DNA of 64,000 nucleotides, taken from assembly GCF_025628885.1 (NCBI RefSeq), contig NZ_JAOTIF010000004.1:62001-126000 (forward strand), given 5' to 3'. Both the position numbers and the translations under genes were made by a program. This document shows, piece by piece, positions 34,734 through 54,782 of the stretch; the stretch's first letter is position 1; each line of letters opens with the position of its first letter. The notes beneath the pieces were generated by a model. That model had not been told where the DNA came from and did no database searches. It saw only the letters and a list, made by a program, of their open reading frames with translations. Source of the DNA: Paraflavisolibacter caeni (GTDB taxonomy: Bacteria > Bacteroidota > Bacteroidia > Chitinophagales > Chitinophagaceae).

Positions 34734-34760
34734 TTGATGGGTTACTTTTTTTTAATTTTG
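34734..34760 (+). promoter_or_regulatory. Candidate Bacteroidota promoter for the CBM48 gene
   Basis: TTG at 34734-34736 and TAATTTTG at 34753-34760 are separated by 16 bp, just below the 17-23 bp usually given for this promoter class. The box lies 40 bp before the start codon. Confidence 0.4.
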
Positions 34761-34800
34761 GTATTAAACCTTAACAAACTCCTTAATTAAAAAGTCACAA

Positions 34801-35091: not shown

Positions 35092-35130
35092 GTCTGAATA
35101 GGATAACCATCTACGGATCTTAATAATCGA

Positions 35131-35180
35131 TTAACCGGCTCTAAGGCGTGTTCTACTTTCAATGCGTCAAAGCCGGTTAA
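35131..35180. terminator. Inverted repeat after the CBM48 gene
   Basis: The arms 35131-35140 and 35171-35180 are perfect 10-bp complements around a 30-nt loop, followed by an AT-rich stretch with several T residues. It is probably a weak terminator separating this gene from the helicase gene. Confidence 0.5.
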
Positions 35181-35262
35181 ATGATTTTATAATTGTTTGT
35201 GTTTTACACGAAAAAGGAATTTTTTGCCTATTGAAGAACGAAATTCCTTTTTATTTTAGAGG

Positions 35263-37032
35263 ATGAATCTTACTCCGGAGCAACTGGCCATTCTTTCCAC
35301 AAACCATGATATGGTGATCAATGCTGTGGCCGGTAGTGGTAAGACGACCACGCTTATTGAATACGCCAAAAGAAAACCTTCTACTGCCCGGATCTTATAC
35401 CTTGCCTTTAATAAAACTGTAAAAAATGAGGCTGAACTTAAGTTCAATGCTGCAGGCCTTAACAATGTTAAGGTCGAAACTGCTCATTCCCTTGCTTTTG
35501 ACAGGATAGTGAAAAGAAGTAGGTATAATGTGGTGGTTGAATATAAATCCTACGAGTGGATAGACTTACTGAACATCAATACTGGTGACCTTCACACAGA
35601 TTATATGATCAGCAATCATATAAGCAAGTTTATCAGCTACTTCTGCAACAGCACAGCCACCAAAGTCCAGGATCTGAACTACACAGATACAGTTCAGGAC
35701 CAGCAGGCACGCCAGTTCGTACACCACTACTATGACCTTATTGAAAAGTTTACCCGCTTGGCACTGGCCAAAATGGATAAAGCCGAAATCAGCATCACAC
35801 ATGATTTCTACTTAAAGAAATTCCAGTTAAGCAATCCGAAGCTGGCTTATGATTATATCCTGTTCGACGAAGGACAGGATGCAAGTGGCGCTATGTTGCA
35901 GGTATTTCTAGAACAACCTGCAGTGAAGATAATAGTGGGTGATATGCATCAGCAGATCTATGGGTGGCGTTATGCGATCAATAGTTTGCAAAAAGTTGAC
36001 TTCTCTTTTTACCCCTTAAGCCATAGTTTCAGGTTTGATGACGAAATAGCTTTTGTTGCCAATAAAGTTTTGAGTTGGAAAAGACATTTGGACCAACAGC
36101 CAGCAGTCCAGGTTATTGGCGATGGAGTGAGAAGCCCGGTCATCTTTAGTAAAGCGACATTAGCCCGCACCAACGTTAGCCTGATGGTCAATGCAATCAA
36201 CCTATGGCAGTCAGGTAAAATCAAGAAAGTGTTTTTCGAAGGGAATATCAACAGTTACGTTTTTGCTGATGAAGGAGCTTCGTTATATGATGTATTGAAT
36301 TTGTACAATGGTAAGTTGGATAAGATCAAGGACAAGGTGATCAAGAGTGTGAATAGCATCAAAGCGCTTGAAGAATATATCGAGAAGACGGAAGATAACA
36401 GCCTTCGTTCCATTGTAGAAGTAGTAAAGCAATATGGCAATGATCTTCCCTGGCTAATAAAAGATCTCAAAGAAAATCATGCTGCTTCAAAAGAGGAAGC
36501 TGATATGGTATTCAGTACCATTCATCGTTGCAAAGGGCTTGAATATGATGAAGTTACCCTGCTCAACGACTTTATTACCGAAGAGAAGCTGTTAAAGAAT
36601 ATTGCTGATTCAGGCGATAAAAAGATGAGAGATATAGATAAAGAACGTCTGACCGAAGAAGTAAACATTTTATATGTAGCCATAACCCGTGCCAAAAACA
36701 GGTTGATCATTCCTCCTGAGTTAAATCCCATGCAAAGTGTACAGGTGCAAATTCAGGATACGCCAACGTATAAAAGGAAATACACTCGGGAAGTGGATGA
36801 ATTTGAAACGTTGAGAAATAACCGGTTGGGTTTTTCAGAAAAAGGAAACAGCAGAACAGCTTCAAATCATGGGAAGAGTTGGAAGCACCAGGAAGAACAG
36901 GATTTAATCGATCTATACCAGCAAGGATTGTCACTGGAAGAAATTGCGAAGAAATTAAAGCGCGGTGCAAATGGTGTCAGATTTAAACTGATAGGGTTGG
37001 GGCTTGTCGATGATTATGATACCAGCTTTTAA
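35263..37032 (+). CDS. UvrD/Rep-like superfamily 1 helicase with C-terminal HTH
   Basis: A 589-residue SF1A helicase, shorter than UvrD. Motifs: Walker A 'NAVAGSGKTTTLIEYAKR' near residue 24, 'LFDEGQDASGAM' (II) near 204, 'VGDMHQQIYGWR' (III) near 225, 'STIHRCKGLEYDEV' (V) near 415 and 'LYVAITRAKNRL' (VI) near 469. After residue about 530 a compact helical tail ('DLIDLYQQGLSLEEIAKKLK') looks like a helix-turn-helix DNA-binding unit not usual for UvrD. It may act in repair or recombination, and the tail suggests a particular DNA target. A regulator gene follows 36 bp later. Confidence 0.9.
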   Translation: MNLTPEQLAILSTNHDMVINAVAGSGKTTTLIEYAKRKPSTARILYLAFNKTVKNEAELKFNAAGLNNVKVETAHSLAFDRIVKRSRYNVVVEYKSYEWIDLLNINTGDLHTDYMISNHISKFISYFCNSTATKVQDLNYTDTVQDQQARQFVHHYYDLIEKFTRLALAKMDKAEISITHDFYLKKFQLSNPKLAYDYILFDEGQDASGAMLQVFLEQPAVKIIVGDMHQQIYGWRYAINSLQKVDFSFYPLSHSFRFDDEIAFVANKVLSWKRHLDQQPAVQVIGDGVRSPVIFSKATLARTNVSLMVNAINLWQSGKIKKVFFEGNINSYVFADEGASLYDVLNLYNGKLDKIKDKVIKSVNSIKALEEYIEKTEDNSLRSIVEVVKQYGNDLPWLIKDLKENHAASKEEADMVFSTIHRCKGLEYDEVTLLNDFITEEKLLKNIADSGDKKMRDIDKERLTEEVNILYVAITRAKNRLIIPPELNPMQSVQVQIQDTPTYKRKYTREVDEFETLRNNRLGFSEKGNSRTASNHGKSWKHQEEQDLIDLYQQGLSLEEIAKKLKRGANGVRFKLIGLGLVDDYDTSF

Positions 37033-37068
37033 CACTATACGGTCCATTTCTATCTTTGCAGCTCAATC

Positions 37069-37977
37069 ATGGCGAAACCTGTTATACCCAACTATTCCAT
37101 TGATCATGTCAGAGAACTGAATCCGGGACCTCAGAACCTGGTGGCCATGCGTTTGGAAGAATACCTTGCAACACGCCACTTTTTATTGACACCGCACCGG
37201 CATTCATTCTATCATATAGTGTACTTTATAAAAGGAAAGGGTGATCACTTTATCGACTTCGTGAACTTTCCGATCAGGAATCATCAGGTTTATTTTATGA
37301 TTCCCGGCCAGGTACACAATTGGAAGTATAATGGAGATGTCAAAGGCTATGTGATCAATTTCACGGATAGCTTTTTTCTTACACATAGTACCGATATCAA
37401 TTTCCTGGAACAGTTTCCTTTTTTTAGTGGCTATTGCGAGGATCAGGTGATACTTTTAAAGGGAACCGTTAAGGAGGAAGTGGTAAGCCTTTTTGAAAAA
37501 ATATTGGATGAGAAATGCCAGCCGGACAGCTTCGCCTCTGAAATGATCCGCACCCTTTTGATGCAACTCTTTATCACCGTAAGCCGCAATAAACCCCAAG
37601 CCATTAAACTACCGGAAAACAGGCAAGGGCAGAAGATGCTGCGTAACTTTAAAAAATTGGTGGATGAGCAGTTTACATTGCATATGCTTCCACGTGATTA
37701 TGCGCGGCAATTGAATGTAACACCCAATTATTTAAATAGCCTTACCAATACCCAGATGGGAAAATCGGCTGGCGAAGTCATCCGGGACCGCATAATCCTG
37801 GAGGCAAAGCGGCTACTGGTAAATGCCGATTTAACGATTGCCGAAATTGCCTCCCGGCTGTATTTTGAGGATAATTCCTACTTTACAAAATTCTTCAAAA
37901 AACATGTTCAGCTAACTCCTGAGCAATTCCGGATCGAATACCAGGTACCGGCTTCTTCCGGATCACCAGGCCCATAG
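37069..37977 (+). CDS. AraC-family transcriptional regulator
   Basis: A 302-residue regulator with an N-terminal cupin sensor half ('TPHRHSFYHIVYFIKGKGDH' near residue 43 carries the metal or ligand-binding His pattern) and a C-terminal AraC DNA-binding domain ('MLPRDYARQLNVTPNYLNSL' near 205, 'TIAEIASRLYFEDNSYFTKF' near 260, then 'FKKHVQLTPEQFR'). It lies between two helicase genes on the same strand. Targets are unknown. Confidence 0.92.
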   Translation: MAKPVIPNYSIDHVRELNPGPQNLVAMRLEEYLATRHFLLTPHRHSFYHIVYFIKGKGDHFIDFVNFPIRNHQVYFMIPGQVHNWKYNGDVKGYVINFTDSFFLTHSTDINFLEQFPFFSGYCEDQVILLKGTVKEEVVSLFEKILDEKCQPDSFASEMIRTLLMQLFITVSRNKPQAIKLPENRQGQKMLRNFKKLVDEQFTLHMLPRDYARQLNVTPNYLNSLTNTQMGKSAGEVIRDRIILEAKRLLVNADLTIAEIASRLYFEDNSYFTKFFKKHVQLTPEQFRIEYQVPASSGSPGP

Positions 37978-38043
37978 TAACAACACCTTGTGTCAACCTA
38001 TTTCCGCTTACTAATTTATCTTTGGCGTTAACTATCCTGAAAA

Positions 38044-40539
38044 ATGCCAGCCCTTGACAATCAATCTTTAGCTGAATTAGAAAAACTATCCGGTATCGTC
38101 AATCGCATTACATTCCATAGTGCGGAAACCGGGTATACTGTACTCAAGGTAAGTAGCTTTCAAAAGCCTCAGGAAGAGATCGCAGTCATCGTTCATCAAT
38201 CCAAAGTATTTGCCGGTGCTACGCTTGATTTTTATGGCACCTGGACTAATCATCCCAGCTACGGTCTCCAATTTAAAGCCACCAAAGTCATCGAAAGAAA
38301 GCCGGCTACTGTCCATGCGCTGGAAAAATATTTAGGTTCTGGCTTGATTAAAGGAGTTGGCCCGGTTATAGCCAAAAGAATTGTCAAGCATTTTGGAAAT
38401 AAAACCCTGGATGTTTTTGAGACCAGCATTGAAAAACTGATAGAAGTAGAAGGCATCGCCAAACGCAAGCTGGAAATGATCAGCGAAGCCTGGGTAGAAC
38501 ACCAGGAAATAAGGAATGTAATGCTGTTTTTACAATCCCATAATATTTCTACGCTGTTTGCAGTCAAGATCTATAAAACCTATGGCAATGAGGCTATTGA
38601 AATTGTCCAAAACAATCCTTACCGCTTAGCCTCAGACATCTATGGAATTGGCTTTTTCTCCGCAGACAAAGTAGCCTTAAGCCTGGGCCTTGCGCTGAAT
38701 TCCCCTCAACGGATCCAGGCAGCCATTGAGCATGTGCTGCAAAATGCCCGGCAGGATGGACATTGTTACCTAAGCCAGGAGCAAATCATCCAGGCGGTAG
38801 TCGAATTGATATCCTTGGAAGATCCCTCAGCCATTGAATCCATGCTCCAAACGATGGAGCAAAAAGAAGAATTGAAAACCAGGCTGCTCCCCGATGAGAA
38901 AGGGTTGTTACAAAAATGTTTTTATGCACACTCCTTATTCTATGATGAGCAATACATAGCGACAAAGGTCAAACAATTAGCCACCCAACGCATCAATGTA
39001 AACCGGGAACAATTGCTGCAGAACCTTTCGTTATACTGCAAATTACACCATATTACCCTGAGTGATGAGCAGTTACAAAGTGTATTGCATATAGCTAATG
39101 AGCGCCTTTCAATTCTTACTGGTGGACCAGGTTGTGGTAAAACGACGACTACCCGTGCCCTGGTTGGATTACTGCAAAGCATGGGTAGGAAAGTAATGCT
39201 CGCTGCTCCCACAGGAAGAGCGGCTCAGCGCATGAGTGAGGTCATTGGGCTGGAAGCCAAAACAATTCACCGGTTATTGGAATGGGATCCTGCCAAAGGA
39301 GGGTTCAAACGCAATGATACCGATCCTTTGCAAACAGATATCCTCATTATTGATGAATGCTCCATGCTGGATGTTCATTTGGCGGCAGCACTGCTCAGAG
39401 CAGTGCCTGTTCATTGCCAATTGGTGCTGATAGGTGATGCGGACCAGCTTCCGGCAGTGGGAGCCGGCAATGTGTTAAAAGATATGATCGCTTCAGGCGT
39501 AGTGCCTTGTATGAAGCTGACCAAAGTATTCCGGCAAGCCGCGGAATCCCTGGTCATTTCTTTCGCCCATCAGATCAACCGGGGCGCAGTACCGAAGATA
39601 GAATCCCCTTTTCACAAGCCGCATGTATGGCAGGAGCAAAAAGATTGTTTGTTTATTGATTCAGAAGAGGCAACCAACGAACAGTTAAAGTTCATTTCCA
39701 AAGTAAAGAGAATGACTGTTGATCCGGGAAGCAATGCCTCGAATGAATCCATCGTATCCGAAGAGGCAGCTGCGGATCTCTATAACCAGGGCAGCAGCTT
39801 ATCGATTCCTGATAAATTCAGCCATGTCGATATAGATGCATTGCTAAAAGCCCGCACTTATAGTGAGGAATTAAAAGAAGTCATCAGGCGGGTCCATCCA
39901 TGGTCCTCTTTGCATTACGGACTTTCTGCAGGGGCGATGATCGAAAAATTGTACGAGGCCATCATCCCGAAATATTTTGGCAGGGAAACGGAAATACAGA
40001 TTCTTTCTCCTATGACCAAGGGCAGCTTGGGAACAAACAATCTCAATAAAGTAATACAGGAAAAGATCAATCCCTCAAAGGCAGGAAAAGCCCAGGTAAT
40101 AGTAGGAGGGAGGATCTTTCGCCAGGGCGACAGGGTGATCCAGAAGCGAAACAACTATGACCTGAATGTATTCAATGGCGACATTGGTTCGATCACCGCT
40201 GTAGATAATGAAGAAATGGAATTGTCAGTGAGTTTCAAAGTAGGAAAGGAGGTAAAAGATGTGAGGTATAAAAGGGAGCATATGCTGGAACTGGATCTGG
40301 CCTATGCCATTACGATTCATAAGTCGCAAGGCAGCGAGTTTGAAACCATCATTATCCCCCTGGTCACACAGCATTTTGGCATGTTATTCCGGAATCTTGT
40401 GTATACGGGTATTACCAGGGCAAAGAAATTGGCAGTATTTGTAGGAACAAGAAAAGCACTGGCCTTGGCTGTGAACAAACAAGATACCGCCACCAGGCAA
40501 ACCGCTTTAGAATACCTACTGAAAAATAATGTTCAGTAA
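38044..40539 (+). CDS. recD2: RecD2-like ATP-dependent DNA helicase
   Basis: A SF1B 5'-3' helicase of 831 residues, longer than typical RecD2. Order: an N-terminal OB-like domain ('SGIVNRITFHSAETGYTVLK'), helix-hairpin-helix segments (residues 95-150 and 185-225), then the helicase core with Walker A 'LTGGPGCGKTTTTRALVG' near 359, 'LIIDECSMLD' near 437, 'IGDADQLPAVGAG' near 462, 'QVIVGGRIFRQGDRVIQKRN' near 683, and 'AYAITIHKSQGSEFETIIIP' near 755. About 95 extra residues sit between 540 and 635 and replace the short linker normally found there. It functions in repair or recombination without RecBC. Confidence 0.92.
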   Translation: MPALDNQSLAELEKLSGIVNRITFHSAETGYTVLKVSSFQKPQEEIAVIVHQSKVFAGATLDFYGTWTNHPSYGLQFKATKVIERKPATVHALEKYLGSGLIKGVGPVIAKRIVKHFGNKTLDVFETSIEKLIEVEGIAKRKLEMISEAWVEHQEIRNVMLFLQSHNISTLFAVKIYKTYGNEAIEIVQNNPYRLASDIYGIGFFSADKVALSLGLALNSPQRIQAAIEHVLQNARQDGHCYLSQEQIIQAVVELISLEDPSAIESMLQTMEQKEELKTRLLPDEKGLLQKCFYAHSLFYDEQYIATKVKQLATQRINVNREQLLQNLSLYCKLHHITLSDEQLQSVLHIANERLSILTGGPGCGKTTTTRALVGLLQSMGRKVMLAAPTGRAAQRMSEVIGLEAKTIHRLLEWDPAKGGFKRNDTDPLQTDILIIDECSMLDVHLAAALLRAVPVHCQLVLIGDADQLPAVGAGNVLKDMIASGVVPCMKLTKVFRQAAESLVISFAHQINRGAVPKIESPFHKPHVWQEQKDCLFIDSEEATNEQLKFISKVKRMTVDPGSNASNESIVSEEAAADLYNQGSSLSIPDKFSHVDIDALLKARTYSEELKEVIRRVHPWSSLHYGLSAGAMIEKLYEAIIPKYFGRETEIQILSPMTKGSLGTNNLNKVIQEKINPSKAGKAQVIVGGRIFRQGDRVIQKRNNYDLNVFNGDIGSITAVDNEEMELSVSFKVGKEVKDVRYKREHMLELDLAYAITIHKSQGSEFETIIIPLVTQHFGMLFRNLVYTGITRAKKLAVFVGTRKALALAVNKQDTATRQTALEYLLKNNVQ

Positions 40540-40547
40540 TTCATCTT

Positions 40548-41699
40548 TTATGGGTGCTTCTTTTGAAAAGAATAAACCACTCTTAAATCAACATAGTCTG
40601 CTACTTGTCGATGTGCCTGTAGGTTAAATCCAACTCCTATATGTTGATTAATGCGGTATTGTAGACCCCAGCGATGGTACAACTGGTCATAGTAAGGCGT
40701 CTGGTCAAAAACATAAATACCCAGGCGTTGACTGAACAGGAACTTACCTAGTATAAACTCATGTCCCACAAGCAGTCCGGCTTTAACAGGACTGGCATTT
40801 AGGGAGTCTCTTAATAATTTCACCTTTAGTTCTTGATCCTGGTATACTTCTGCTCCCAATGTTAAGTTATTGATCCGGCCAACTTGTTTACCTGCCTGGA
40901 AGGTTAAACCAAGGAGAAGCAACCTTGCACGATTACCGTTTTCATCCAACGATCTTCTAGGAAGACCAAATACACCAATATCAAAACGGGGAGCATACTG
41001 CTTCCAGAATTTATCCTTCATTTTGATACCGGTATAAAAAGGCCGTGAATTCTTTTGATAACTTAAAGCAATGCCCCCTGTAGGCCAGTTAATTCCCTTG
41101 TTAGGTTGTTTGATCCCTCCATTCGATTCATGCTGGTAGTTAATGGAAGTATTGATCCACCAATGCTTGTTTAAATTGAACCATAGACCCATTCCAACAA
41201 GTAAATAGCCACTGAATTGGGTACTGTAAGACTGGTTAGTTGGATTATGAATGCTGTCAAAAGGGTTAGAAAGATAAGAAAGGCCAGCAACACCTTTGAG
41301 AGAGAAAAAAATATTGTGGCTTAGTCGATAAGTGGGCTCTAAAAAATAGGCAGCAGAAGAACCTGCACCAAGAATCTTAGTATCATAATCATAATAGGAA
41401 AGCAATAGTCCATTGCGAGGATAGCAGTGGCATAAATTCCAGGTAGCGGCATCGTTTCTTTGCCAGCTTAGAAAAAGCTCAACTCCTGTGGGATGAGCGC
41501 CTTTTGTATTTTGAACCGCTTGAGAATGGGCAAAGATAAATCCATGCTGCACGCCTGCACCAATAGAGAAAAGGCTTTTTTGCTTGTCCTTGCTTTGAAG
41601 ATGATCAATAGAGTCATATTGTGCACTTGCAGTGATGGAATGTATAATAACAATGATTCCAACTGTTAGAAGCTTATTAAATTGCATTGTACACTCCAT
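40548..41699 (-). CDS. PagL-like lipid A deacylase / acyloxyacyl hydrolase, outer membrane
   Basis: The 383-residue protein has a signal peptide ('QFNKLLTVGIIVIIHSITASA') and alternating aromatic/hydrophobic strands of an outer-membrane barrel. 'INYQHESNGGIKQPNKGIN' near residue 190 matches the PagL active-site pattern (catalytic His-x-Ser-Asn). Upstream 'FLSWQRNDAATWNLC' and 'GVAGLSYLSNPFD' match the same family. It is nearly twice the length of PagL, because a C-terminal barrel half follows, as is common in Bacteroidota. It is expected to remove 3-O-acyl chains from lipid A. It converges on recD2 with 8 bp between the stops. Confidence 0.85.
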   Translation of the reverse strand: MECTMQFNKLLTVGIIVIIHSITASAQYDSIDHLQSKDKQKSLFSIGAGVQHGFIFAHSQAVQNTKGAHPTGVELFLSWQRNDAATWNLCHCYPRNGLLLSYYDYDTKILGAGSSAAYFLEPTYRLSHNIFFSLKGVAGLSYLSNPFDSIHNPTNQSYSTQFSGYLLVGMGLWFNLNKHWWINTSINYQHESNGGIKQPNKGINWPTGGIALSYQKNSRPFYTGIKMKDKFWKQYAPRFDIGVFGLPRRSLDENGNRARLLLLGLTFQAGKQVGRINNLTLGAEVYQDQELKVKLLRDSLNASPVKAGLLVGHEFILGKFLFSQRLGIYVFDQTPYYDQLYHRWGLQYRINQHIGVGFNLQAHRQVADYVDLRVVYSFQKKHP

Positions 41700-41807
41700 T
41701 GATGTTTTTTGACAGGTTTGTGGAATGTTTGTATATTATACACAGCAAAAGTAAATTGAATTGGATTTTTCCTTTTTACACTTACATTTTACATTCGCAA
41801 TATCAAA

Positions 41808-41851
41808 TTTCGGGATGTAGCGCAGCCCGGTAGCGCGCTTCGTTCGGGACG
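41808..41851 (+). repeat. Left direct repeat (attL-like): 5' fragment of tRNA-Pro(CGG)
   Basis: This 44-bp segment is identical to 47442-47485. It comprises three T residues plus nucleotides 1-41 of tRNA-Pro(CGG), stopping just after the anticodon loop, after which the sequences diverge. The fragment keeps a promoter-like upstream (TTG at 41761, TACATTTT at 41783), as if it had been the original tRNA gene start. It lacks the T arm and 3' acceptor half, so it cannot give a functional tRNA. Confidence 0.92.
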
Positions 41852-41867
41852 TAGCTACTGCCTCTTA

Positions 41868-44800
41868 TTACCGCATCTTGATCATTTGTATTGAAGCCAC
41901 AGTAGTTGTGTCGTTGAAAATAACAAGATGATACAGACCGGCGGCAAGTGCATTTAGTTCTATCGTTTCAATTTCATTCTTTGTCAGGATTTTTTTTACC
42001 AATTTGCCTGCGGCATTATAGATCCAGATGGTTTCTTTACCGGTAAGCCCCTGCACCCTGACAAAATCTTTTGCCGGGTTAGGATATATGCTCACCTGCT
42101 GCTCTTTGTCCAACCGCACCATTTTTACATGGCTGTATTCAGACCTGCCATCTTTATCAACCTGGCGAAGGCGATAATAGTTGGTGCCGGCTGAAGGCGT
42201 TAAGTGTAAAAACTGGTATTGCAATAATGCCACGCTGTTTCCCTGATCAGCTTTTGTTTGAACAAAGCCTATTTTTACCCAGACTGATCCATTGGCACTA
42301 TACTGCACTTCGAAGCCTGTGTTATTTTGTTCAGTATAAGTTGTCCAATACAGCCTGACTGTGTTCCCAACAGGAGTGGCAGTGAACTCGCCAAACGTTA
42401 CAGGTAGTGGTGGTGGTTCAATGACCGCTTGAATCAATACCGTGACAGTAGCTACACCACATTGCGATGCATGTTGAGGGCATACTGATGCTGATGGTGA
42501 CAGTGAATCGCAAACCCTGTACTGGAACTGGTCTGTACCCGTGAAAGTGCCATCAGGCTTATATAAAATGGTTCCGTTTGGAAGTACGCTAACCGTGCCA
42601 TGCGCCGGCGCCAGCAAACCGCTGTTGAGGCTCACTACCAGCTGGTCGCCTTCAGGATCGCTGTCGTTAAACAATACGTCAACATACAAATCCTGGTTGG
42701 TATAGCCCACACCGTCACCTGTAGTTGTATTGTACGGGTCATCCACAACACTGGGGGCCTGGTTGGCAGCAGGTACAATTATGTTGAAAGTAATGGTTTT
42801 AATCTCGCTTGACAAACCACCAGGGTCTGTCACATGGTATTGAACGGAAATAATGCCGGTGAATCCATTTTCAGGTGTATACGTATAAGTGCCGTCAGGA
42901 TTAGAACTAAGCGTGCCATGCGAAACTGTTCCGTCAAAAACAATTGTAGACTTCTCTCCTTCAGGGTCGGTGTATGAAATAACGGAAAAGTTCAGTGGCC
43001 TGCATTCATTAACCTGAAGCGTTGTATCCCTGGCTACCGGCGGCTGGTTTAACACCGTAAATACAACCAGGGCCGTATCGCTAAGACCGGGGTCGCAGCC
43101 TGGAGGTACCTGGGTGCGCTGGTATATCATGGTATCCTTACCATACCAGCCTGCATTGGGTGTATAAGTAAGCGTATTGCCGCTTAAAGTATAGGTGCCA
43201 TTAGCAGGAGATTGCATAACCACGGCATCCGCCAGTGTGTAGTTATTTAGATCGTTGTCAGCACCTGCAGGGTTGGTGTTATTTTGCAGGTCTATTACCT
43301 GTTGGGTACCGCTCAGGGCTTGGCTATAATCAGCATTAACCTGTGGTGCGGCAGCGCCGACGTTCACATAAACATAAGCGACATCCGTGAGACTTCCGTC
43401 ACTCACAACATATTGTATAGTATCTACCCGTGGAATCAATGAACTATTGTTAGGAGTATAAATAAGGGTTGTACCACTCACAACCAATGTGCCATTCAAC
43501 GGCCTAAGCATACTGGCCGATTGAATGGCAAGTGTAGCGCCAGCATCAGCATCATGGTCATTGTTTAATACACTAATAGTTACTGGCTGTGCTACAACAG
43601 TAGAAGCTGTATTGGGGTTGGCCAAGGGCGCCCGGTTGGGTATGGCAGTGCAGGGAAGCGGTAATACATAGGTAATGGTAAACAGAGGATTGTTAGCTGC
43701 CGTACCATTTTCAGAAGTACCGAAAATAAGACGCTTATCCACTTGGGTGCTATCCACCGACTGGCCAATCATGATACCGCGGTTGGAGGCAATATTATTT
43801 TGCCATTGGACGACGGCGCTTGTTATATCAAAAGTATGCTGGCTGCCATTGCCGCCGTTATTGGGGGCTGTACCGCGGGCAATGTACAAGGAAGACAAAG
43901 CGCCGGGAGCAAAGTCGCTACCCTGGGTAGTCCAGTTGGAACCCGTAGCACGAATACGCCAGGTTACTTGCCCTTCATTCCACATGGGGTCGCCAATAAT
44001 GCGGTAGGCACTCATTTTATATTTTGCATTATCACCCCCGGTTACGGTAAGACGCACAGTAGCACTTTGTATGATGGCATCGGCTGGTATCTTGGCCTGG
44101 TATTGAAGATCGGGGATGGCTAACAGGAAACGGCGACGGCTGCCTATTTTTTTACCAATTTCGGTAGTAGTAACATTACCATAGTTAGTAGTGGCGTTTC
44201 CGCCATCCTCCCTTATCTGGGCATCAATGGTTTCCGTTATTCCTGTAAAAGTCTTAGTAACCGGGCTGCTTATATCAATTGGTCTATACTGGCCACTACC
44301 AGCACAACCATCATCTTTAATGTTGATGGTTACCGTGGCAGAGGAGCAGCTGCCTTGTGTATTACATACCTGGTAAGTAAACTGGTCGGTAGCGTTGCCT
44401 CCGGAAGGATAGTCAGTATTATTTAAATACGTAATCGTATTATCTGTATTGATGCTCACTATTCCATTGGCAGGTTGGCTTATAATAGTCAATGTAAGCG
44501 GTAAGTTGCCGGGATTATTGTCATTAGCAGTAACATCAATCGTTGCCGGCAGATCTTCTAATACAGACGCATTAACCTGATTTGCTGTAAGCTTCGCCGG
44601 TGTACAATCCCAGTTTTCCAATTCGGCAGCATCTACCCATATTGATGCAGTACCGGCAGAGCGTTGAATTCTTATATAGCGTAAGCCACCGGAAGGCAAT
44701 ACCAAACGTACGGATGTACCGACATTAGAGCTGGTGGAGAAAGCTCCTGCCGGAGTAAAGTTGACGCCATCGGCACTATATGAAATGGCGGCAGTAACGG

Positions 44801-47039
44801 AAATGCCTGTGCTGCTGGCAAAATACACGACAGCCGTATCGTAATTGGTTGGTGTAAACGTACTACCAAAATCGAGAGTGAAGACGTCGGTGTTGGAAGA
44901 TATTATTGCATAGGTTGCGCTACTTGCCGGGTCATAATCCGGAGATCCAAGTGCATTAGCCGGGTTGGTAACACCGGAACTGGTTTGTGCTATAGCATTG
45001 GCTGTACCCGTTATATCCCAGGCGCTGCCCGGGAAACAGCCATGTACATCGGGAGAACCCACGCTTACAGTCACTTTGGCTGTAGCACAGAGGGGCCCAA
45101 GGAAAGGTGCTGTACCTGTATTGGGTGTATGATCACAGATTTGATAGGTAATGCTTGCTGCACCATAGAAATTTTGAGCCGGCATAAAGGTTACTTTGGT
45201 GCCATCGGTAGTCCAGGTCCCCACATCCGTTACAGTAAAGGATGTTCCATATTGACCTGGAACCGCCGGGTTTTGCAGCAATACTGAACTTGTATTCAAA
45301 TTACCTTCCGGGTCTGAATCGTTTGTAGTAACATTTATCGTAGTGATCATTCCTGGTTTAATACATTGAGTCTGTATAGTTGCAATATCATCTTGTGGTG
45401 TTGGTGAATGGGGCGGAGGCATAATTGTAGAGGTGTGAACTGAGGTTGTGCTGCGGCCGCAAGCGTCCGTTACGGTCACATTAAAAATAACGGGCGTAGG
45501 TGCTGCAACGGCCCCTGGTGTAAACACCGTGTTAGACGCATTACCGCTGTTATTGGGCGAGAAAGACCCAATGACAGAGCCGTCACTGACTTTCACGCAA
45601 GTCCATGCATAGGTAACCAGGTTGCTTCCTACCGGTGAAGATGCACTTAGCGAAAGTTGGGTGCTGGTATACACTTTGCCATCTGCGGGTATGCCTTGTA
45701 TATCGCTAACCTGTACGGCTTTTTCTTTAACGGCAACAAAACTCCAGTTAAAGAAAGCCCTTTGAGCCGCCACATCGCCAACTGTTCCTTTATTGAGTGA
45801 GTGCCCCGCTTCATACATTACAAGACCGCGATTGGGGTCGCTCAAACTACGGCCATAAGCAATGACTACCGCTGCACCTGGCGATTTGCCGGGTACATCG
45901 GCCTGAGTGGGGTCGTATGTAATAATTTGGGTAGTAGATAACCAACTTCCACCCAATACCGGCATGTATATCTGCTCGCCACCATTTTGTGTGGCTGCAT
46001 CCGGCAGACCGATAAACTGGGATACCCAGTCATCAGGCGGAGCTACATTGCCCGTTTGCGACGAAGGCACTGGACTTACATTGGTGTTGTATGGACTAGT
46101 ACCATTTCCATGATTTTTCCACAACACAAGTGAATTCTGTGCGTAGTTGGTTGAACCTGGCACAGGGGCGATATAGTTGCCACCGGAAGTAACTTTGTTA
46201 ACCAGGAAATTGGATTGTTGGCTAATGTTGGCAGGGTTATACATATTTGCCAAAGCGCTACCGGCATGGCAACCAGTCCAGATTGCTCCTTTATAGGTAA
46301 GGTTCCAGTTATAGAGATTGCCATGCGTTGACCAAACGGGGTCAGCATGCGGCAATACAAAAATATCGTTACATGCCCCTAGTTGTGCCGGGGCAACCGA
46401 GTTGTATTGAGAAGACGGTATACCTGCATTAGTAAAAAAAGGTTGTGCAAGACTTCCATTTTGAAAGTCAAGCGTCCACACAGGCGCTACATTGAGTGTG
46501 TCAACATTGGCGCCTCTAAAAGTGTATGGTGATGTAATTGCATTGGCAGTAACCAAACCACGGGTATAACCATTGCTGCTTGTTACAGATGTAGTACCCG
46601 TCCATTGTGTAATTGCTGTTTGTACCGGTCCGGTAACATATATGGACGGGATGACAAACAAACCGCCCCTGTAAGCCACCCCGTTAATAGTGTAGTCCAC
46701 TTCGTCTTTTCCTTTATTATCCCGAACAATCCACAACACAGGAACCTTATAATACTTAACCAACTCATGCACCATGCCATAAGGCCTTAGGCCCCCACTG
46801 GTAACTGAGTTAAGGTTGGCGTCCATCTTAATAATGTAGGACCCCGCAGAGATCGTTACCTGCGACTGGGCTTTTTCAAAACTGAGCAACACAGTCCATA
46901 TAAATATTACAGGAAAGACAATACGCCGCTTCAAAAGCAGCCACCCGTCATGTAAAGGGTGTGAAGGTTGTATAAATCCGTTCAATGATCTTAGACGCAC
47001 ATTAAAGCAATATGCTTCAAAGCAATCCCCACATTTCAT
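41868..47039 (-). CDS. Giant multidomain secreted surface protein with T9SS sorting domain
   Basis: The reading frame gives 1723 residues, but the signal peptide ('KRRIVFPVIFIWTVLLSFEK') begins near residue 37, so the true start is probably an internal TTG (about 46930). Regions: an unrecognised N-terminal domain to about 435; PKD/Ig-like modules to 660; a discoidin-like region (about 666-813, 'TNPANALGSPDYDP'); an Ig/cadherin-like repeat ('VLEDLPATIDVTANDNN'); a DNRLRE-type domain (about 925-1125); several 'VLNNDHDAD'-type cadherin-like repeats to 1570; a strand-rich module ('VRLYWTTYTEQNNTGFEV'); and a type A T9SS C-terminal signal from about 1650 ('VSIYPNPAKDFVRVQG'). It is exported through T9SS to the cell surface or medium, probably for adhesion or glycan binding. 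It fills the interval between the tRNA-Pro repeats. Confidence 0.9.
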   Translation of the reverse strand: MKCGDCFEAYCFNVRLRSLNGFIQPSHPLHDGWLLLKRRIVFPVIFIWTVLLSFEKAQSQVTISAGSYIIKMDANLNSVTSGGLRPYGMVHELVKYYKVPVLWIVRDNKGKDEVDYTINGVAYRGGLFVIPSIYVTGPVQTAITQWTGTTSVTSSNGYTRGLVTANAITSPYTFRGANVDTLNVAPVWTLDFQNGSLAQPFFTNAGIPSSQYNSVAPAQLGACNDIFVLPHADPVWSTHGNLYNWNLTYKGAIWTGCHAGSALANMYNPANISQQSNFLVNKVTSGGNYIAPVPGSTNYAQNSLVLWKNHGNGTSPYNTNVSPVPSSQTGNVAPPDDWVSQFIGLPDAATQNGGEQIYMPVLGGSWLSTTQIITYDPTQADVPGKSPGAAVVIAYGRSLSDPNRGLVMYEAGHSLNKGTVGDVAAQRAFFNWSFVAVKEKAVQVSDIQGIPADGKVYTSTQLSLSASSPVGSNLVTYAWTCVKVSDGSVIGSFSPNNSGNASNTVFTPGAVAAPTPVIFNVTVTDACGRSTTSVHTSTIMPPPHSPTPQDDIATIQTQCIKPGMITTINVTTNDSDPEGNLNTSSVLLQNPAVPGQYGTSFTVTDVGTWTTDGTKVTFMPAQNFYGAASITYQICDHTPNTGTAPFLGPLCATAKVTVSVGSPDVHGCFPGSAWDITGTANAIAQTSSGVTNPANALGSPDYDPASSATYAIISSNTDVFTLDFGSTFTPTNYDTAVVYFASSTGISVTAAISYSADGVNFTPAGAFSTSSNVGTSVRLVLPSGGLRYIRIQRSAGTASIWVDAAELENWDCTPAKLTANQVNASVLEDLPATIDVTANDNNPGNLPLTLTIISQPANGIVSINTDNTITYLNNTDYPSGGNATDQFTYQVCNTQGSCSSATVTINIKDDGCAGSGQYRPIDISSPVTKTFTGITETIDAQIREDGGNATTNYGNVTTTEIGKKIGSRRRFLLAIPDLQYQAKIPADAIIQSATVRLTVTGGDNAKYKMSAYRIIGDPMWNEGQVTWRIRATGSNWTTQGSDFAPGALSSLYIARGTAPNNGGNGSQHTFDITSAVVQWQNNIASNRGIMIGQSVDSTQVDKRLIFGTSENGTAANNPLFTITYVLPLPCTAIPNRAPLANPNTASTVVAQPVTISVLNNDHDADAGATLAIQSASMLRPLNGTLVVSGTTLIYTPNNSSLIPRVDTIQYVVSDGSLTDVAYVYVNVGAAAPQVNADYSQALSGTQQVIDLQNNTNPAGADNDLNNYTLADAVVMQSPANGTYTLSGNTLTYTPNAGWYGKDTMIYQRTQVPPGCDPGLSDTALVVFTVLNQPPVARDTTLQVNECRPLNFSVISYTDPEGEKSTIVFDGTVSHGTLSSNPDGTYTYTPENGFTGIISVQYHVTDPGGLSSEIKTITFNIIVPAANQAPSVVDDPYNTTTGDGVGYTNQDLYVDVLFNDSDPEGDQLVVSLNSGLLAPAHGTVSVLPNGTILYKPDGTFTGTDQFQYRVCDSLSPSASVCPQHASQCGVATVTVLIQAVIEPPPLPVTFGEFTATPVGNTVRLYWTTYTEQNNTGFEVQYSANGSVWVKIGFVQTKADQGNSVALLQYQFLHLTPSAGTNYYRLRQVDKDGRSEYSHVKMVRLDKEQQVSIYPNPAKDFVRVQGLTGKETIWIYNAAGKLVKKILTKNEIETIELNALAAGLYHLVIFNDTTTVASIQMIKMR

Positions 47040-47103
47040 TTGCAGATATTATTTGCAAAGCTATATGATATCTTCTGATAAAAAGAATCTGGAATTCAAA
47101 ACC

Positions 47104-47304
47104 CCTCCTCGTGGCATCAAACATACTTTTAAAATATCCAACTTTATCTCTGCAGCTTGGATAGATAATGCAGATTTTCAGGTTTGTAACTGTAAGGAAT
47201 ATTCAATGAAAGAACCTTACTCTTTCATATCTCCATCTTAATCGAATTATTCCTTTGTTATTTTCGATACTGATTTCTACCTTTCGGTTTTTATTGGAAC
47301 CCAT
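47104..47304 (-). pseudogene. Degenerate N-terminal fragment of a tyrosine integrase
   Basis: Minus strand from an ATG at 47304: 'MGSNKNRKVEISIENNKGII' then 'RLRWRYERVRFFH' and a stop. This is the N-terminal arm-binding pattern ('SIEN..G.LRLRWRY.G.RY') of phage-type integrases. The family match continues in other frames: 'LNIPYSYKPENLHYLS', 'IQAAEIKLDILK', then 'SMFDATRR' (family pattern 'IE.DI..G.FD.TL'). At least three frameshifts have occurred and the whole catalytic domain is missing. It lies 137 bp from the intact tRNA-Pro gene, where an integrase would be expected beside its attachment site. Confidence 0.72.
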
Positions 47305-47441
47305 TTTGAACCCAAATTTTAGTTATAGGGCCACTTAAGGCATAAGCTCAATAAACAGAACAAAGAAAAGGAAAGATGAAAGTGTTTGATATAGTGGTGG
47401 CTAATAATGATTTTGGTTCATTTGCAACCAGGTTCATAATG

Positions 47442-47485
47442 TTTCGGGATGTAGCGCAGCCCGGTAGCGCGCTTCGTTCGGGACG
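47442..47485 (+). repeat. Right direct repeat (attR-like) within intact tRNA-Pro(CGG)
   Basis: This copy is identical to 41808-41851 and forms the 5' part of the complete tRNA-Pro gene. The repeats are 5634 bp apart. Recombination between them would remove the giant surface-protein gene and the integrase remnant and leave one intact tRNA gene. Confidence 0.9.
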
Positions 47486-47518
47486 AAGAGGCCGCTGGTT
47501 CGAATCCAGTCATCCCGA
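47445..47518 (+). tRNA. tRNA-Pro (anticodon CGG)
   Basis: A complete 74-nt cloverleaf: acceptor CGGGATG/CATCCCG, a D arm identical in its loop to that of tRNA-Pro(GGG), anticodon stem CTTCG/CGAAG closing loop TTCGGGA with anticodon CGG, and T arm GCTGG-TTCGAAT-CCAGT. CCA is not encoded. A CATTTGCAACC promoter-like stretch lies about 25 bp upstream, and a terminator follows. Confidence 0.97.
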
Positions 47519-47524
47519 CGCATA

Positions 47525-47558
47525 AAGCTCTGGTTTTCAATGATCAGGGCTTTTTTAT
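47525..47558 (+). terminator. Terminator after tRNA-Pro(CGG)
   Basis: The arm 47525-47534 pairs with 47543-47552 using two G-U wobbles and is followed by a T-run. It is the diverged twin of the hairpin after tRNA-Pro(GGG), with changes that keep pairing. Confidence 0.82.
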
Positions 47559-47623
47559 TTTAAGTAATGTGATCTGAATCTGACGATGAATTATTAATAA
47601 TTGGGTCAGAAATGGTATAATGC

Positions 47624-47652
47624 AAAAAAAGCCACCCATAAGAGTGGCTTTC
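47624..47652 (-). terminator. Terminator after the repeat lipoprotein gene
   Basis: On the minus strand a stem with AAGCCACT-type arms is followed by a run of seven T residues (A-run at 47624-47630). It lies about 30 bp past the lipoprotein stop codon. Confidence 0.82.
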
Positions 47653-47683
47653 CTCGAAATCAGTAATTGAAACTAAATAGAGA

Positions 47684-49264
47684 TTAAGGTTTTAATTTCA
47701 TTAACCAAACATCGTAATCTCCATGGTTACCATTGAAATCGCCATCATTACTTTTAGATTCTCCAGCTATAACATAACTACCGGCAGCTGCGATGATAGG
47801 ATAACTAACATCATCCTGAGTTCCACCAAAAAGCTTGCCCCATTGTTTATTGCCGTTTGCATCCACCTTTATAATCAGAGCATCACTATTCCCCTTATTG
47901 CCACTTATATCACCATCATTACTGTAAGTAAATCCAGTCATTACATATCCACCATCAGCAGTTGCTGTAATGAATGATGCTCCATCGTGCTGAGTTCCTC
48001 CAAATAGTTTACTCCATTGTTTATTTCCATTTGCATCGAGCTTTACAAGCCAGGCATCATAATAACTTCCGTGATTACCATTGACGTCGCCATCATTGCT
48101 ATTAGAAGATCCGGCCATTAAATAACCACCATCAGGAGCTGCAATAATGGATGTATTTGAGTCATATAATGTTCCTCCAAATAGTTTAATCCATTTTTTG
48201 TTGCCACTTGCATCCAGCTTCATTACCCAAGTATCACTTTCACCATGATTACCACTGAAATCGCCATTGTTGCTACTTGTAGATCCGGCAATTACAAAAC
48301 CACCGTCAGTAGTTACAATAATGGTTGAGGCACCTTCATTTTGTGTTCCTCCATATAATTTACTCCATTGTTTATTGCCATTAGCATCGAGCTTTATAAC
48401 CCAGGCATCATTCCCTCCATTATTGCCGCTGACGTCGTCATTGTTACTATAAGAGTATCCTGACATTACATAACCACCATCATTTGTTGCAGCAATAGAA
48501 GTAAGGGCATCCGATGCAGTCCCTCCAAATAGTTTACTCCATTGTTTATTTCCATTTGCATCCATTTTTAAAACCCATGCATCACTACTTCCATGATTAC
48601 CATTAACATCAACATCATGACTATTAGTTGATCCTGCCATTAAATAACCACCTTCAGAAGTCGCAAAAATGGCAAAGAAAGCATCATTTATAGTTCCTCC
48701 AAAAAGTTTGCTCCATTGTTTATTTCCATTAGCATCTAATTTCATAACCCAGCCATCACCCCCTCCATAACTGCCACTAACATCGCCATTGTTGCTACCG
48801 CTACTACCTGCAATTATATAACCACCATCAGCAGTTTTTACCATCTCAGAAATCGCCTCAAACGATGTTCCACCGAAAAGTTTACTCCATAAAACATTGG
48901 GAATAGAAGACTTCTGTGTAACAGTAATGACTACTGGTTGGAGAGACGAATTTCCTAATGGAGATATGGTAATAGTTGCAGTCCTTACGGTTGCACCTAA
49001 ATTATTTTCCAGTGCTGTTACCAATACTTTGTTGTTGCCATTGCCACTTGTAATACTGGTTTTGATCCAAGTTGCAGTTGATGGTGAAACAGAAATGGTC
49101 CATTTAACAGAGGATTGAATCATGAAAGAATCAACACCTCCCACATCACCACTTAGGGTTACGGATGTTGTACTTGTATTTAATTGGGGGGTGTCACTGG
49201 ATTTTTGGCAGGAAATCAACAGTAATAAGAATGAGGGTATGATCAAATAAAGCAGTTGTTTCAT
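47684..49264 (-). CDS. Surface lipoprotein with BACON domain and seven tandem propeller-like repeats
   Basis: The start at 49264 gives 'MKQLLYLIIPSFLLLLISCQ', a lipoprotein signal with Cys in a L-I-S-C lipobox. A longer reading from 49288 adds eight unlikely residues. A BACON-type Ig domain follows (about 25-120, 'VKWTISVSPSTATWIKTS'). Then come seven repeats of about 58 residues, each reading 'WSKLFGGT....DGGY..AGS' then 'GD..GNHG..DAWV.KLD.NGNKQ'. The pattern suggests a seven-bladed beta-propeller. It is probably anchored at the cell surface. The substrate or partner is unknown. It lies just right of the tRNA-Pro site. Confidence 0.9.
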   Translation of the reverse strand: MKQLLYLIIPSFLLLLISCQKSSDTPQLNTSTTSVTLSGDVGGVDSFMIQSSVKWTISVSPSTATWIKTSITSGNGNNKVLVTALENNLGATVRTATITISPLGNSSLQPVVITVTQKSSIPNVLWSKLFGGTSFEAISEMVKTADGGYIIAGSSGSNNGDVSGSYGGGDGWVMKLDANGNKQWSKLFGGTINDAFFAIFATSEGGYLMAGSTNSHDVDVNGNHGSSDAWVLKMDANGNKQWSKLFGGTASDALTSIAATNDGGYVMSGYSYSNNDDVSGNNGGNDAWVIKLDANGNKQWSKLYGGTQNEGASTIIVTTDGGFVIAGSTSSNNGDFSGNHGESDTWVMKLDASGNKKWIKLFGGTLYDSNTSIIAAPDGGYLMAGSSNSNDGDVNGNHGSYYDAWLVKLDANGNKQWSKLFGGTQHDGASFITATADGGYVMTGFTYSNDGDISGNKGNSDALIIKVDANGNKQWGKLFGGTQDDVSYPIIAAAGSYVIAGESKSNDGDFNGNHGDYDVWLMKLKP

Positions 49265-49416
49265 AATGGTTGCTAATTTTGGAAACAAATATATTTACGA
49301 GTTTTTAATACCTTTTATGAGTGTAATCAATTTCAATGACTTTAACCTTTTGCCTGATAGTATTATCGGTTTGCTTTTGCATAAGAGTTAAACGTAACCT
49401 TTTATGAGTTTCCCTT

Positions 49417-49653
49417 TCATTTGTTACGATAATCAATAAAGTCCCAAGGAATTTCTTTTTTGAAAATTCCTATGCATTCTTCCATCAACTCCAAAGAAAC
49501 TTCCTTCTGAAACACAGTAATTGTCCTGGTTCTTTTTGTATCGTCGCGAAATATCTCCACAATCAGTTGGTTGTCCCTGTAGATTTCCACGCCGATTCCG
49601 TCCCTTTCGTTTACGTCGCTTGCAATGATCACTCTGTCTTTTCGTAGTTCCAT
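49417..49653 (-). CDS. Small unknown protein
   Basis: A 78-residue soluble protein ('ELRKDRVIIASDVNERDGIG', then 'EIYRDNQLIVEIFRDDTKR') with a mixed beta then C-terminal helical pattern ('SLELMEECIGIFKKEIPWDF'). It has no signal peptide, membrane segment or cysteine cluster beyond one Cys. It starts 6 bp after a broken upstream gene in the same direction, so the three small genes 49417-50147 look like one unit. I recognise no family. Its size and acidic nature would fit an immunity-type or accessory protein, but nothing shows that. Confidence 0.65.
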   Translation of the reverse strand: MELRKDRVIIASDVNERDGIGVEIYRDNQLIVEIFRDDTKRTRTITVFQKEVSLELMEECIGIFKKEIPWDFIDYRNK

Positions 49654-49659
49654 GATGGG

Positions 49660-49980
49660 TTATTGTAGTTTAAAGATCTGAAAGAACTCATCTGCTTCGA
49701 TTAGGTGGTTGATGACCTGGTGAATGCTTTCTCGGCTGATAGTATCTACGAGCACCATATTTCTGGTCCAGAAGTACTTGCCTTTGAGGCATTCTCCAGT
49801 TTGGCTGTTCTTCTGTCTCAAGGTCTACAGGTTGACATAAGTAAAGAAGGTGGCCACATAGTTGCTGTCATCCTCAAAGGTGACAATGACAACACTGTTG
49901 TCATCATAAACAGGCTGTCCTCCAACAATTGCAACCTTTTGCTTACTTTCGATCCAAAGCGACTTTATCTTCTTTTTCAT
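49660..49980 (-). pseudogene. Small unknown gene interrupted by an in-frame amber codon
   Basis: From ATG at 49980 the frame encodes 106 amino acids if one TAG (codon 52, at 49827-49825) is ignored. The first part reads 'MKKKIKSLWIESKQKVAIVG' and the continuation 'EADEFFQIFKLQ' ends at TAA 6 bp before the next gene. Codon use and residue pattern are equally protein-like on both sides of the TAG, suggesting a recent nonsense mutation, or a sequencing error. The opposite-strand frame over the same DNA looks like a shadow. Confidence 0.6.
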
Positions 49981-49994
49981 AAAGTCATTTTGTA

Positions 49995-50147
49995 TTACTC
50001 TTCATATGTGATGTAATTGATTATGGCTTGGCCTTCCCCAGCAGCTTTGACATAGAAGGCTTTCAGATCGTTAAAGTTGTGCACCAAGTAATCTTTTTCA
50101 TCTTCATTATCATCCCAAATGTAGGGGTAGACTTCCAGTTCGTTCAT
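49995..50147 (-). CDS. Very small acidic protein, unknown
   Basis: A 50-residue frame from ATG 50147 to TAA at 49995: 'MNELEVYPYIWDDNEDEKDY' followed by 'LVHNFNDLKAFYVKAAGEG'. It is acidic and soluble, with several aromatic residues. It begins just downstream of the DUF4349 stop (50158) and ends 14 bp before the broken 106-codon gene, so it is probably the first member of the small-gene unit. No family is recognised. Confidence 0.5.
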   Translation of the reverse strand: MNELEVYPYIWDDNEDEKDYLVHNFNDLKAFYVKAAGEGQAIINYITYEE

Positions 50148-50157
50148 TTTCTGGTTA

Positions 50158-51024
50158 TTATGGCTTCACCGTCACATCTGATAGCTTTCCTTTATGTTTC
50201 CAATACCTGAAAGAAATATAAATAACTATGGCTGTCAAGATGAACATCCACAGGTTTGCCATTATAAGTACAAAAGCCTGGAAATACTGCCAACCATCAC
50301 TGATAGCGTTACTGAATCGTTTACCGAAGGAAAGCTGATAATCTGCAATGATATAGTTAGCAATAACTTCTTTTCTAACCAGGGAGTTTTGAAAGAGGTG
50401 CAGATTTACAGGGCTATATTTAACATCCGCATCAATTGCTCTATTCTGAATTTGTTGTTCAATGGCTTCATCCTTGAGGGCGATGGTTTTGATATTTTCA
50501 GAAGGCTTGTTCTTTTGAATGGCAGTCTGTGATAACACCGCTGTTCTTGCCTTTTCCTTTAAAGCATTTTCAAGGTAGGAAAGGCTTCTGTCATCAATAT
50601 TCAGTTGGCTGCTACCTGTGAAATATCCAAGGTCTGCAACGCTGTACATAAAGGCTTCAAGATTTTCGGATGGAATACGGGCGGTAATATCTGCCTGAGG
50701 CGCAACGGTTGAGATGACAAGCAGCGAATCGGTTGAAATTTTTAGTTCCTTTCTTTCACCTTCTACAGATTCAAAACTCTGGTTGAAAATCATACCTCCC
50801 AGCTTTTGAACAAGCCTTGATATGGCTCTTGTGCCTTGCTCAACATCTTTTACCTTGAAGTTGATGCTGGCAGTCTTTACCAGTTTTACGGAATCCCCCG
50901 TTAGGCCTGTTATGGAAGTGGTATCACTTAAGGAGGTAAGGACATCATTTTCTTTTGAACTATTTTGGCAGCCGAAGATTAGTACTAAAAAGAAAAGGGT
51001 AAACAGTGAAAGGGTAGGTTTCAT
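50158..51024 (-). CDS. DUF4349 family lipoprotein
   Basis: The 288-residue protein starts with a lipoprotein signal ('KPTLSLFTLFFLVLIFGCQN', Cys in I-F-G-C). The DUF4349 core follows: 'ASINFKVKDVEQGTRAISRL' near residue 52, 'ADITARIPSENLEAFMYSV' near 112, and a coiled region with 'LSYLENALKEKARTAVL'. One transmembrane helix lies near 245-270 ('FQAFVLIMANLWMFILTAIV'), so it is anchored at both ends. The function of this family is unknown, and membrane-stress roles have been suggested for relatives. Confidence 0.87.
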   Translation of the reverse strand: MKPTLSLFTLFFLVLIFGCQNSSKENDVLTSLSDTTSITGLTGDSVKLVKTASINFKVKDVEQGTRAISRLVQKLGGMIFNQSFESVEGERKELKISTDSLLVISTVAPQADITARIPSENLEAFMYSVADLGYFTGSSQLNIDDRSLSYLENALKEKARTAVLSQTAIQKNKPSENIKTIALKDEAIEQQIQNRAIDADVKYSPVNLHLFQNSLVRKEVIANYIIADYQLSFGKRFSNAISDGWQYFQAFVLIMANLWMFILTAIVIYISFRYWKHKGKLSDVTVKP

Positions 51025-51108
51025 AACATTCTGTTTGTCTACATTGATTCCTTTTTATTTGAAAATGTAACCCAATCAATCTTGTAAATTTCTTTTACAG
51101 CTATCAAT

Positions 51109-51200
51109 ATTCTAAAGGTTAAACCGTAATCATCCTTTCCAAAACCTACGTCCACTCCAATATTGACTTTCATTGAAGGTATCATTCGACATCGCAGTCC
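51109..51200 (-). pseudogene. C-terminal fragment of a BamA/D15-like outer-membrane protein gene
   Basis: On the minus strand this encodes 'MIPSMKVNIGVDVGFGKDDY' followed by 'GLTFRI', almost identical to the C-terminus of the intact barrel gene at 55869-56951 ('IPSMKVNVGVDVGFGKDDYS'). The rest of the gene is missing, and the frame runs into unrelated sequence where the last beta-strand should end. Confidence 0.8.
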
Positions 51201-51444
51201 CATTGAACATCACAATTAGCCGAAAATGCAACTTTTAACCGGCCCAGGAATTGGTGAAGAGCACAAGTTGGTTTAAAAGGGCAAAATACACCGGAGGGAA
51301 GCGCCGACAGTTGTACCGATAACTGTAAAGTAGAAGCTGCGTCCTTACTAATGTCAACAATTGATGCTTCTATCGAAAGCCATCTCATGGGTTTTGCAGT
51401 AGTGCAAATCAGAAAGGAAAATAAAGTTGTGGATATAAAATTAT

Positions 51445-51552
51445 GAATCTGCTGGTAAATGCTATTACCGGGAAACTCCGCCCGGTTATGCAATCCTGGA
51501 TTTATATGGGGATGGAAGGTTGGATAATCAATACATCCCACATGCATTTTAA
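51445..51552 (+). pseudogene. 3' fragment of a calcineurin-like phosphoesterase gene (left copy)
   Basis: The last 35 codons plus stop ('ESAGKCYYRETPPGYAILDL') match 54644-54751 at nearly every base. A stop codon lies just upstream in the frame, so only this piece survives. With the right copy it forms direct repeats flanking the mscS gene. Confidence 0.85.
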
Positions 51553-51729
51553 TTCTTAGAGGGCACGCACATCAACTCAAAATTTTGCATCCATCTTGCT
51601 GTATTTCTTTCAATGTGCCATCACAGGCATGATCATTATCGAGTTAGTGTTCAAAGTTCAACTTCCATAGAATTCAAATCTGTCAGCTACATAAAAATAT
51701 TTTTTTGCATGAATTGTTATTAAATTTAA

Positions 51730-54751: not shown

Positions 54752-54782
54752 TACTGCTTAGATAGCCAACCATTCCCACGCT

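Follow-up and report, generated by a model that had tools for sequence, protein, structure and literature searches.

The segment at 41808–47485 of the window (the 64,000-nt stretch of the Paraflavisolibacter caeni genome analysed here) is, with a probability of roughly 0.86, what is left of an integrative element whose attachment gene was tRNA-Pro(CGG) and which recombined within the anticodon loop and then decayed. The case is carried by the direct repeats that bound the segment, the stump of an integrase gene beside the intact tRNA, a crossover core in common with related islands, and the link between this clade of integrases and tRNA-Pro genes.

Direct repeats and an integrase stump

The two copies of the repeat are identical at all 44 positions, lie 5634 bp apart and extend to 47 bases with one mismatch, the bases flanking each copy being different. 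A chance origin is ruled out by the 44/44 identity, which also establishes the claim of the sequence-only reading that the 5' 41 nt of the tRNA and three preceding T residues are present twice at this spacing. Its description of the left copy as a fragment, with only the right copy running into a whole tRNA, agrees with ARAGORN, which calls the right-hand gene alone. The anticodon loop (nt 33–39) occupies 41843–41849 in the left copy and 47477–47483 in the right one; divergence had been said to begin exactly at the 3' side of this loop, and it does begin near there, but the identity ends at nt 41, two bases past the loop. The arrangement is that of an intact tRNA with a displaced 5' fragment upstream in the identical orientation, the fragment ending (nt 41) at a known integrase subsite, the anticodon loop. 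The promoter-like sequence reported upstream of the left copy did not withstand analysis: five of the six positions of TAnnTTTG are matched, a score reached by 1138 of 2000 shuffles too, and a tRNA promoter was rejected as indistinguishable from shuffles or intergenic background, a result that counts against the island reading.

Across the genome (7.0 Mb), the sequences similar to the tRNA at E < 0.01 are the three intact tRNA-Pro genes (CGG, GGG and TGG) and two partial copies: the left copy and, on contig C1, a 3' fragment of 44 nt. The exact 5'-half pattern matches 158 of 394 genomes of the family, with two copies only in this genome and in G190. The latter was rejected as a second two-copy case: its copies lie at the end and the start of two contigs with overlapping sequence and are most simply one gene split by an assembly break.

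No integrase was found by Pfam among the 27 window ORFs, nor did the PF00589 search of the genome give a match on this contig, but the idea of an island devoid of an integrase was dropped once tblastn with the clade integrases (14 from the family and one from a phage contig, described below) revealed a stump. Twelve of these 15 queries match the window at 47112–47334 on the minus strand at E ≤ 0.05 (best E 4.6e-9), one matches there at E 0.61 and two have no match there. Among 300 shuffled control queries, 78 gave any match at E ≤ 1 and three at 0.01, the best being 7.7e-4; five of the real queries score below that value. The stump consists of three pieces in three frames, with the ATG at 47304–47302, 140 nt from the tRNA, and reads from the tRNA into the island interior. 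It stops at about residue 68, frameshifted and devoid of a complete catalytic domain, and is counted as a remnant only; because the C-terminal domain is absent, the specificity is not readable, which counts against the island reading. Conversely, an integrase trace is what the element model predicts, and the stump at this position supports it. Tandem TGGGTCA repeats are present at the starts of related integrases, and these, like the similar tandem repeat at the start of the stump (Table 1), are candidate arm-type sites.

Table 1. Coordinates of the features discussed (window positions, except for the arrays, which are given by fetched locus)
Feature	Position	Strand	Basis or remark
Displaced 5' half of tRNA-Pro(CGG): TTT + nt 1–41	41808..41851	+	Far island junction; no ARAGORN call
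Cargo: intact 1723-codon ORF, Big_9/cadherin-like repeats, C-terminal Por_Secre_tail (type IX secretion)	41868..47039	-	Pfam
Integrase pseudogene stump, tyrosine integrase N-terminus, ~68 residues	47112..47316 (about)	-	tblastn
Tandem TTGGGTTCAAAATGGGTTC overlapping integrase start	47297..47315	-	Resembles TGGGTCA tandem repeats of relatives
Restoring copy of 5' half, near junction	47442..47485	+	Repeat comparison
Complete tRNA-Pro(CGG)	47445..47519	+	ARAGORN
TTGGGTCAGAAATGG, 82 nt past tRNA end, putative second-element footprint	47601..47615	+	Motif search
Pseudo-tRNA-Pro arrays	L067 3541–3900; L074 8309–8700; L076 318–1259		
Pseudo-tRNA-Pro arrays	L093 5900–7100; L094 7300–7900	- (both)	

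Under the proposed mechanism, a tyrosine integrase would have recombined attP with attB within the 7-bp anticodon loop, the stem providing the core arms. The attP of the element would have carried upstream DNA and a tRNA 5' half between the integrase start and the core, the working tRNA would combine, at the loop, a 5' half supplied by the element with the 3' half of the host gene, and the host's original 5' half would have been displaced 5.6 kb leftward, where it borders the opposite end of the element. Subsequently, the integrase gene would have been frameshifted and mostly deleted, with the cargo ORF staying open; an element with such an integrase is probably fixed. The earlier suggestion that the element brought its own 5' tRNA half gains support from the stump, from the relatives located at tRNA-Pro and from the crossover in the anticodon loop.

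Related integrases and attachment sites with a tRNA-Pro 5' half

The exact 5'-half pattern picked up a 32.9-kb viral contig (IMGVR_UViG_2757320416_000001) that contains nt 1–42 of tRNA-Pro(CGG) with no further match to the tRNA, encodes a portal, a large terminase and a holin, and has a 401-aa tyrosine integrase starting 111 nt beyond the 5' half. With this integrase as the query, 14 matches were obtained at E ≤ 1e-40 in the 394 family genomes. ARAGORN places a tRNA at 12 of the 14 loci, always upstream of the integrase and on the same strand: Pro-TGG in five, Pro-GGG in three, Pro-CGG in one, Ala-GGC in two and His-GTG in one, so that tRNA-Pro accounts for 9 of the 12, with the integrase directly downstream of the intact tRNA.

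The displaced 3' fragment was located in 6 of 11 islands, each time running to the tRNA 3' end; in the other five, it was not found within the stretches fetched. These fragments start at nt 21 (G254, CGG), 27 (G126, Ala), 8 (G364, His), 33 (G008, GGG), 30 (G014, TGG) and 31 (the TGG island of the same genome as the window). Of the two 5' fragments, the left copy in the window extends to nt 41 and that in the phage contig to nt 42. All eight have in common only nt 33–41, that is, the anticodon loop and two more bases, which substantiates the assignment of this loop as the integrase crossover site. An anticodon loop with its palindromic stem fits the usual organization of a 7-bp overlap and core, according to PMC8371274.

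Two islands of the same clade, in G254 (tRNA-Pro CGG, ~8 kb) and G008 (tRNA-Pro GGG, ~5.4 kb), are canonical, and the window island resembles them in the tRNA-Pro family, the anticodon-loop core and an integrase that adjoins the intact tRNA and reads inward. They differ in having the integrase 3' of the tRNA and a displaced 3' half, whereas in the window the integrase lies 5' of the tRNA and it is the 5' half that is displaced. The window island is a mirror image of its relatives, the integrase and the restored tRNA being together but on the 5' side of the tRNA. That the 12 tRNA-linked relatives are all oriented the other way counts against the island reading.

The genome that contains the window also harbors a 21-kb island of the ordinary orientation in its tRNA-Pro(TGG) gene (G000:C1:809919–831011; L091, L092), with ORFs that, judged by eye, resemble a type I restriction-modification system and with a 43-residue integrase remnant just past the distal 3' half. 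At tRNA-Pro(TGG) in G014, the island measures 16.5 kb and its integrase is intact.

On the other side of the CGG gene, the 15-base motif TTGGGTCAGAAATGG (Table 1), searched with one variable base in 222 loci, was found nowhere but here and where the integrase genes begin in six genomes (G008, G063, G177, G184, G375 and G376; 6 of the 14 integrase loci). It may be the trace of a second integrase element, in the normal orientation, that formerly occupied the 3' side of the same tRNA; this footprint is less certain because it comprises only 15 bases. We entertain, at somewhat less than even odds, the idea that, for a single integrase clade, the quasi-palindromic anticodon arm works in both directions, attP bearing on its integrase side one or the other half of the tRNA, 3' or 5'. 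If so, elements can switch which tRNA end gets rebuilt, the mirror form also swaps the upstream region of the tRNA for the element's own, and the footprints at 47112–47316 (minus) and 47601–47615 (plus) record both directions at the CGG gene.

The viral contig resembles the window in combining a tRNA-Pro(CGG) 5' half that lacks the 3' half with an integrase of the clade, and differs from it in that the integrase lies across the core from the 5' half. The half in this contig is either phage attP or host DNA; the contig's first ORF, on the other side of the half, gave no match. A more general pattern in viral contigs retrieved only the same contig again, and patterns for other tRNA-Pro halves found none. 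Among 11 phage records similar to the 44-mer, 5 have a tRNA-Pro annotated at the match; in the other six, ARAGORN finds a whole tRNA-Pro in four and none in two, Sphingopyxis phage VSN-002 (MZ127829.1) and Rhizobium phage RHph_I3_18 (MN988542.1). The tRNA-Pro 5' halves of these two stop where the anticodon loop ends (~15835–15886 and ~24141–24219, respectively), and the 3' end of a PF00589 gene lies 13 and 48 nt away. Both records are circular, so an attP made of a tRNA-Pro 5' half exists elsewhere. They resemble the window in the 5' half that reaches to the anticodon loop and in the nearby PF00589 integrase, and differ from it in belonging to another host phylum; the 3' end of their integrase faces the core from the side devoid of a tRNA half. 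Given that the phage integrases lie across the core from the 5' half, these cases back the type of site, a core with a 5' half, rather than the exact layout proposed for the window element. The VSN-002 integrase is annotated as a 'telomere resolvase', yet matches PF00589. In a set of 111 IMG/VR contigs that match a tRNA-Pro pattern, 80 were examined (L223–L302), and all 80 continue into the tRNA 3' half; many viral contigs contain a whole tRNA-Pro(GGG), often close to the contig end, and these are perhaps prophages integrated there.

Cargo, locus and alternative origins

The cargo ORF contains, according to Pfam, six Big_9 stretches, cadherin-like domains, a CshA repeat, a CBM96 match and the Por_Secre_tail, a domain composition suggestive of a large protein that is secreted or located at the cell surface; translation may begin at a site internal to the ORF. 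With at most the best 8 candidates per genome considered, none of the 17 congeners has a match at E ≤ 1e-30, and G025, from another genus, encodes a homologue that is 70% identical over residues 32–1721. This patchy distribution counts for the island reading. The G+C content of the gene is 46.9% vs 41.1% for the window, and that of the G025 homologue is 46.8%. In G025, at ~18–28 kb from the homologue, TraG, TraJ, TraK and TraM score above the cut-off and TraN just below it; these are families of Bacteroidetes conjugative transposons. The cargo gene may have a mobile history. Searches with the cargo protein gave only two partial matches among genome contigs (30% and 23% identity) and two among plasmids (<60% identity). 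Nothing marks the segment as a prophage or a conjugative element: between the repeats, there are no structural, packaging or transfer genes, only the 1723-codon ORF and the stump. The description of the island as decayed, accordingly, holds for the frameshifted integrase but not for the cargo, whose ORF is intact.

The cargo probably arrived with the element. It is unlikely, albeit considerably less so than the other alternatives weighed here, that the island was made by an integrase and the gene either arrived later or came to adjoin the att site when the integrase was deleted. The gene borders are indeed suggestive of a heavily cut element, with the stop codon <20 bases from the left junction and the 5' end within ~75 bases of the stump, and no clade integrase (E ≤ 0.001) was found in the 99.5 kb around the G025 homologue. 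Against this, no part of the gene extends past the junctions, no homologue turned up in the congeners, and among the listed repeats of at least 14 nt at 36000–53000, only the 44-bp repeat pairs the gene borders.

The locus itself is a rearrangement hotspot. In G012, a SpoU-methylase-type gene, tRNA-Pro(GGG), tRNA-Pro(CGG) and an amidohydrolase block are adjacent to one another, and the distance between the GGG and CGG genes is ~57–130 bp in G001, G003 and G012, with the order and orientation varying among the congeners; in the window, the amidohydrolase block lies at ~16–20.8 kb and the two tRNAs are 16.6 kb apart (30796–47519). This rearrangement relative to G012 counts against the island reading, and it favors, together with the frequent partial tRNA-Pro copies near the tRNA-Pro genes of relatives, an origin of the left copy by template switching or break repair that duplicated part of the tRNA in the course of rearrangement, the end near the loop being coincidental; past the break, moreover, the left copy continues as TTCGGGACGTAGC, resembling a second tRNA 5' end. 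We nevertheless consider such integrase-free copying improbable, given the integrase stump inside the interval and a breakpoint that differs by at most one base from the one in the phage contig and lies across from where the six 3' fragments begin. An empty site was not seen among the genomes compared, the nearest of which are other species of the genus (18 genomes with this one), and this too counts against the island reading. Nor can such a site be placed, because the flanking genes are present in too few of the 18: one has RecD2 (38044–40539; no match at E ≤ 1e-60 in the 17 congeners) and three have the MscS-type gene.

Far less probable still is that the left copy belongs to the pseudo-tRNA units, often found beside a small GIY-YIG ORF, in which a palindrome stands for the anticodon arm. 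Such units adjoin tRNA-Pro genes in several relatives, but they depart from the tRNA after ~nt 26, whereas the left copy has no palindrome and retains the anticodon arm to nt 41, and on this difference in the breakpoint the explanation was rejected; furthermore, the CCCGCCNNNGGCGGG palindrome occurs in the window at chance level, and none of the GIY-YIG matches in the same genome is on this contig. The units form tandem arrays adjoining the real tRNA-Pro (Table 1), with a palindrome such as TCCCGCCTGTGGCGGGA in place of the anticodon arm and, in many of them, a terminator-like hairpin of their own. Small GIY-YIG ORFs are found among the arrays, with 8 of 22 loci within 115 nt of a tRNA (30 loci were fetched and 8 of UvrC size left out). 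Our literature searches found nothing on pseudo-tRNA-Pro arrays with GIY-YIG ORFs; PMC13096335 deals with SegB, a GIY-YIG enzyme of phage, and with segmental amplification.

Other repetitive sequences occur in the window. Immediately to the right of the tRNA lies a gene for a 534-aa BACON-domain protein with repeats of ~174 nt (47684–49288). Farther on, two pairs of exact repeats, one of 55 bp (51454/54653) and one of 35 bp (51126/55908), have similar flanks, and in the regions involved (51126–51547 and 54653–55942) the gene region at ~54783–56951 is present a second time in shortened form. A 2049-aa histidine kinase (21073–27222) comprises about ten HAMP stretches and internal exact DNA repeats of up to 135 bp.

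Comparison with known systems

The preferred reading, a real, integrase-made and decayed island of a known minority type, is supported. The 5' orientation had been called the less common one, and so it is in Islander (PMC4383910), with 159 islands containing a 5' tDNA fragment vs 3760 with a 3' fragment, and 2083 islands at the anticodon site. Our searches of the open-licence literature found no account of this integrase clade or of a switch of sides. An island that has lost almost all of its integrase, and that an integrase filter would discard, can still be traced from a 44-bp repeat. With both a mirror-image island and relatives of the normal orientation in the clade, the choice of the side on which the tRNA is rebuilt becomes testable, and so does the effect of the exchanged upstream region on tRNA expression.

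Fragments of tRNA genes left by integration, including one archaeal island with 44-bp repeats, are described in PMC9897764. A further comparison concerns the pTN3-like integrases (PMC8371274), which differ in being archaeal. Like the 5'-fragment islands of Islander (PMC4383910), the window element is bounded by an intact tRNA and a 5' fragment in the same orientation and uses the anticodon-loop subsite (A); unlike that set, in which an integrase ORF is required, it retains a stump only.
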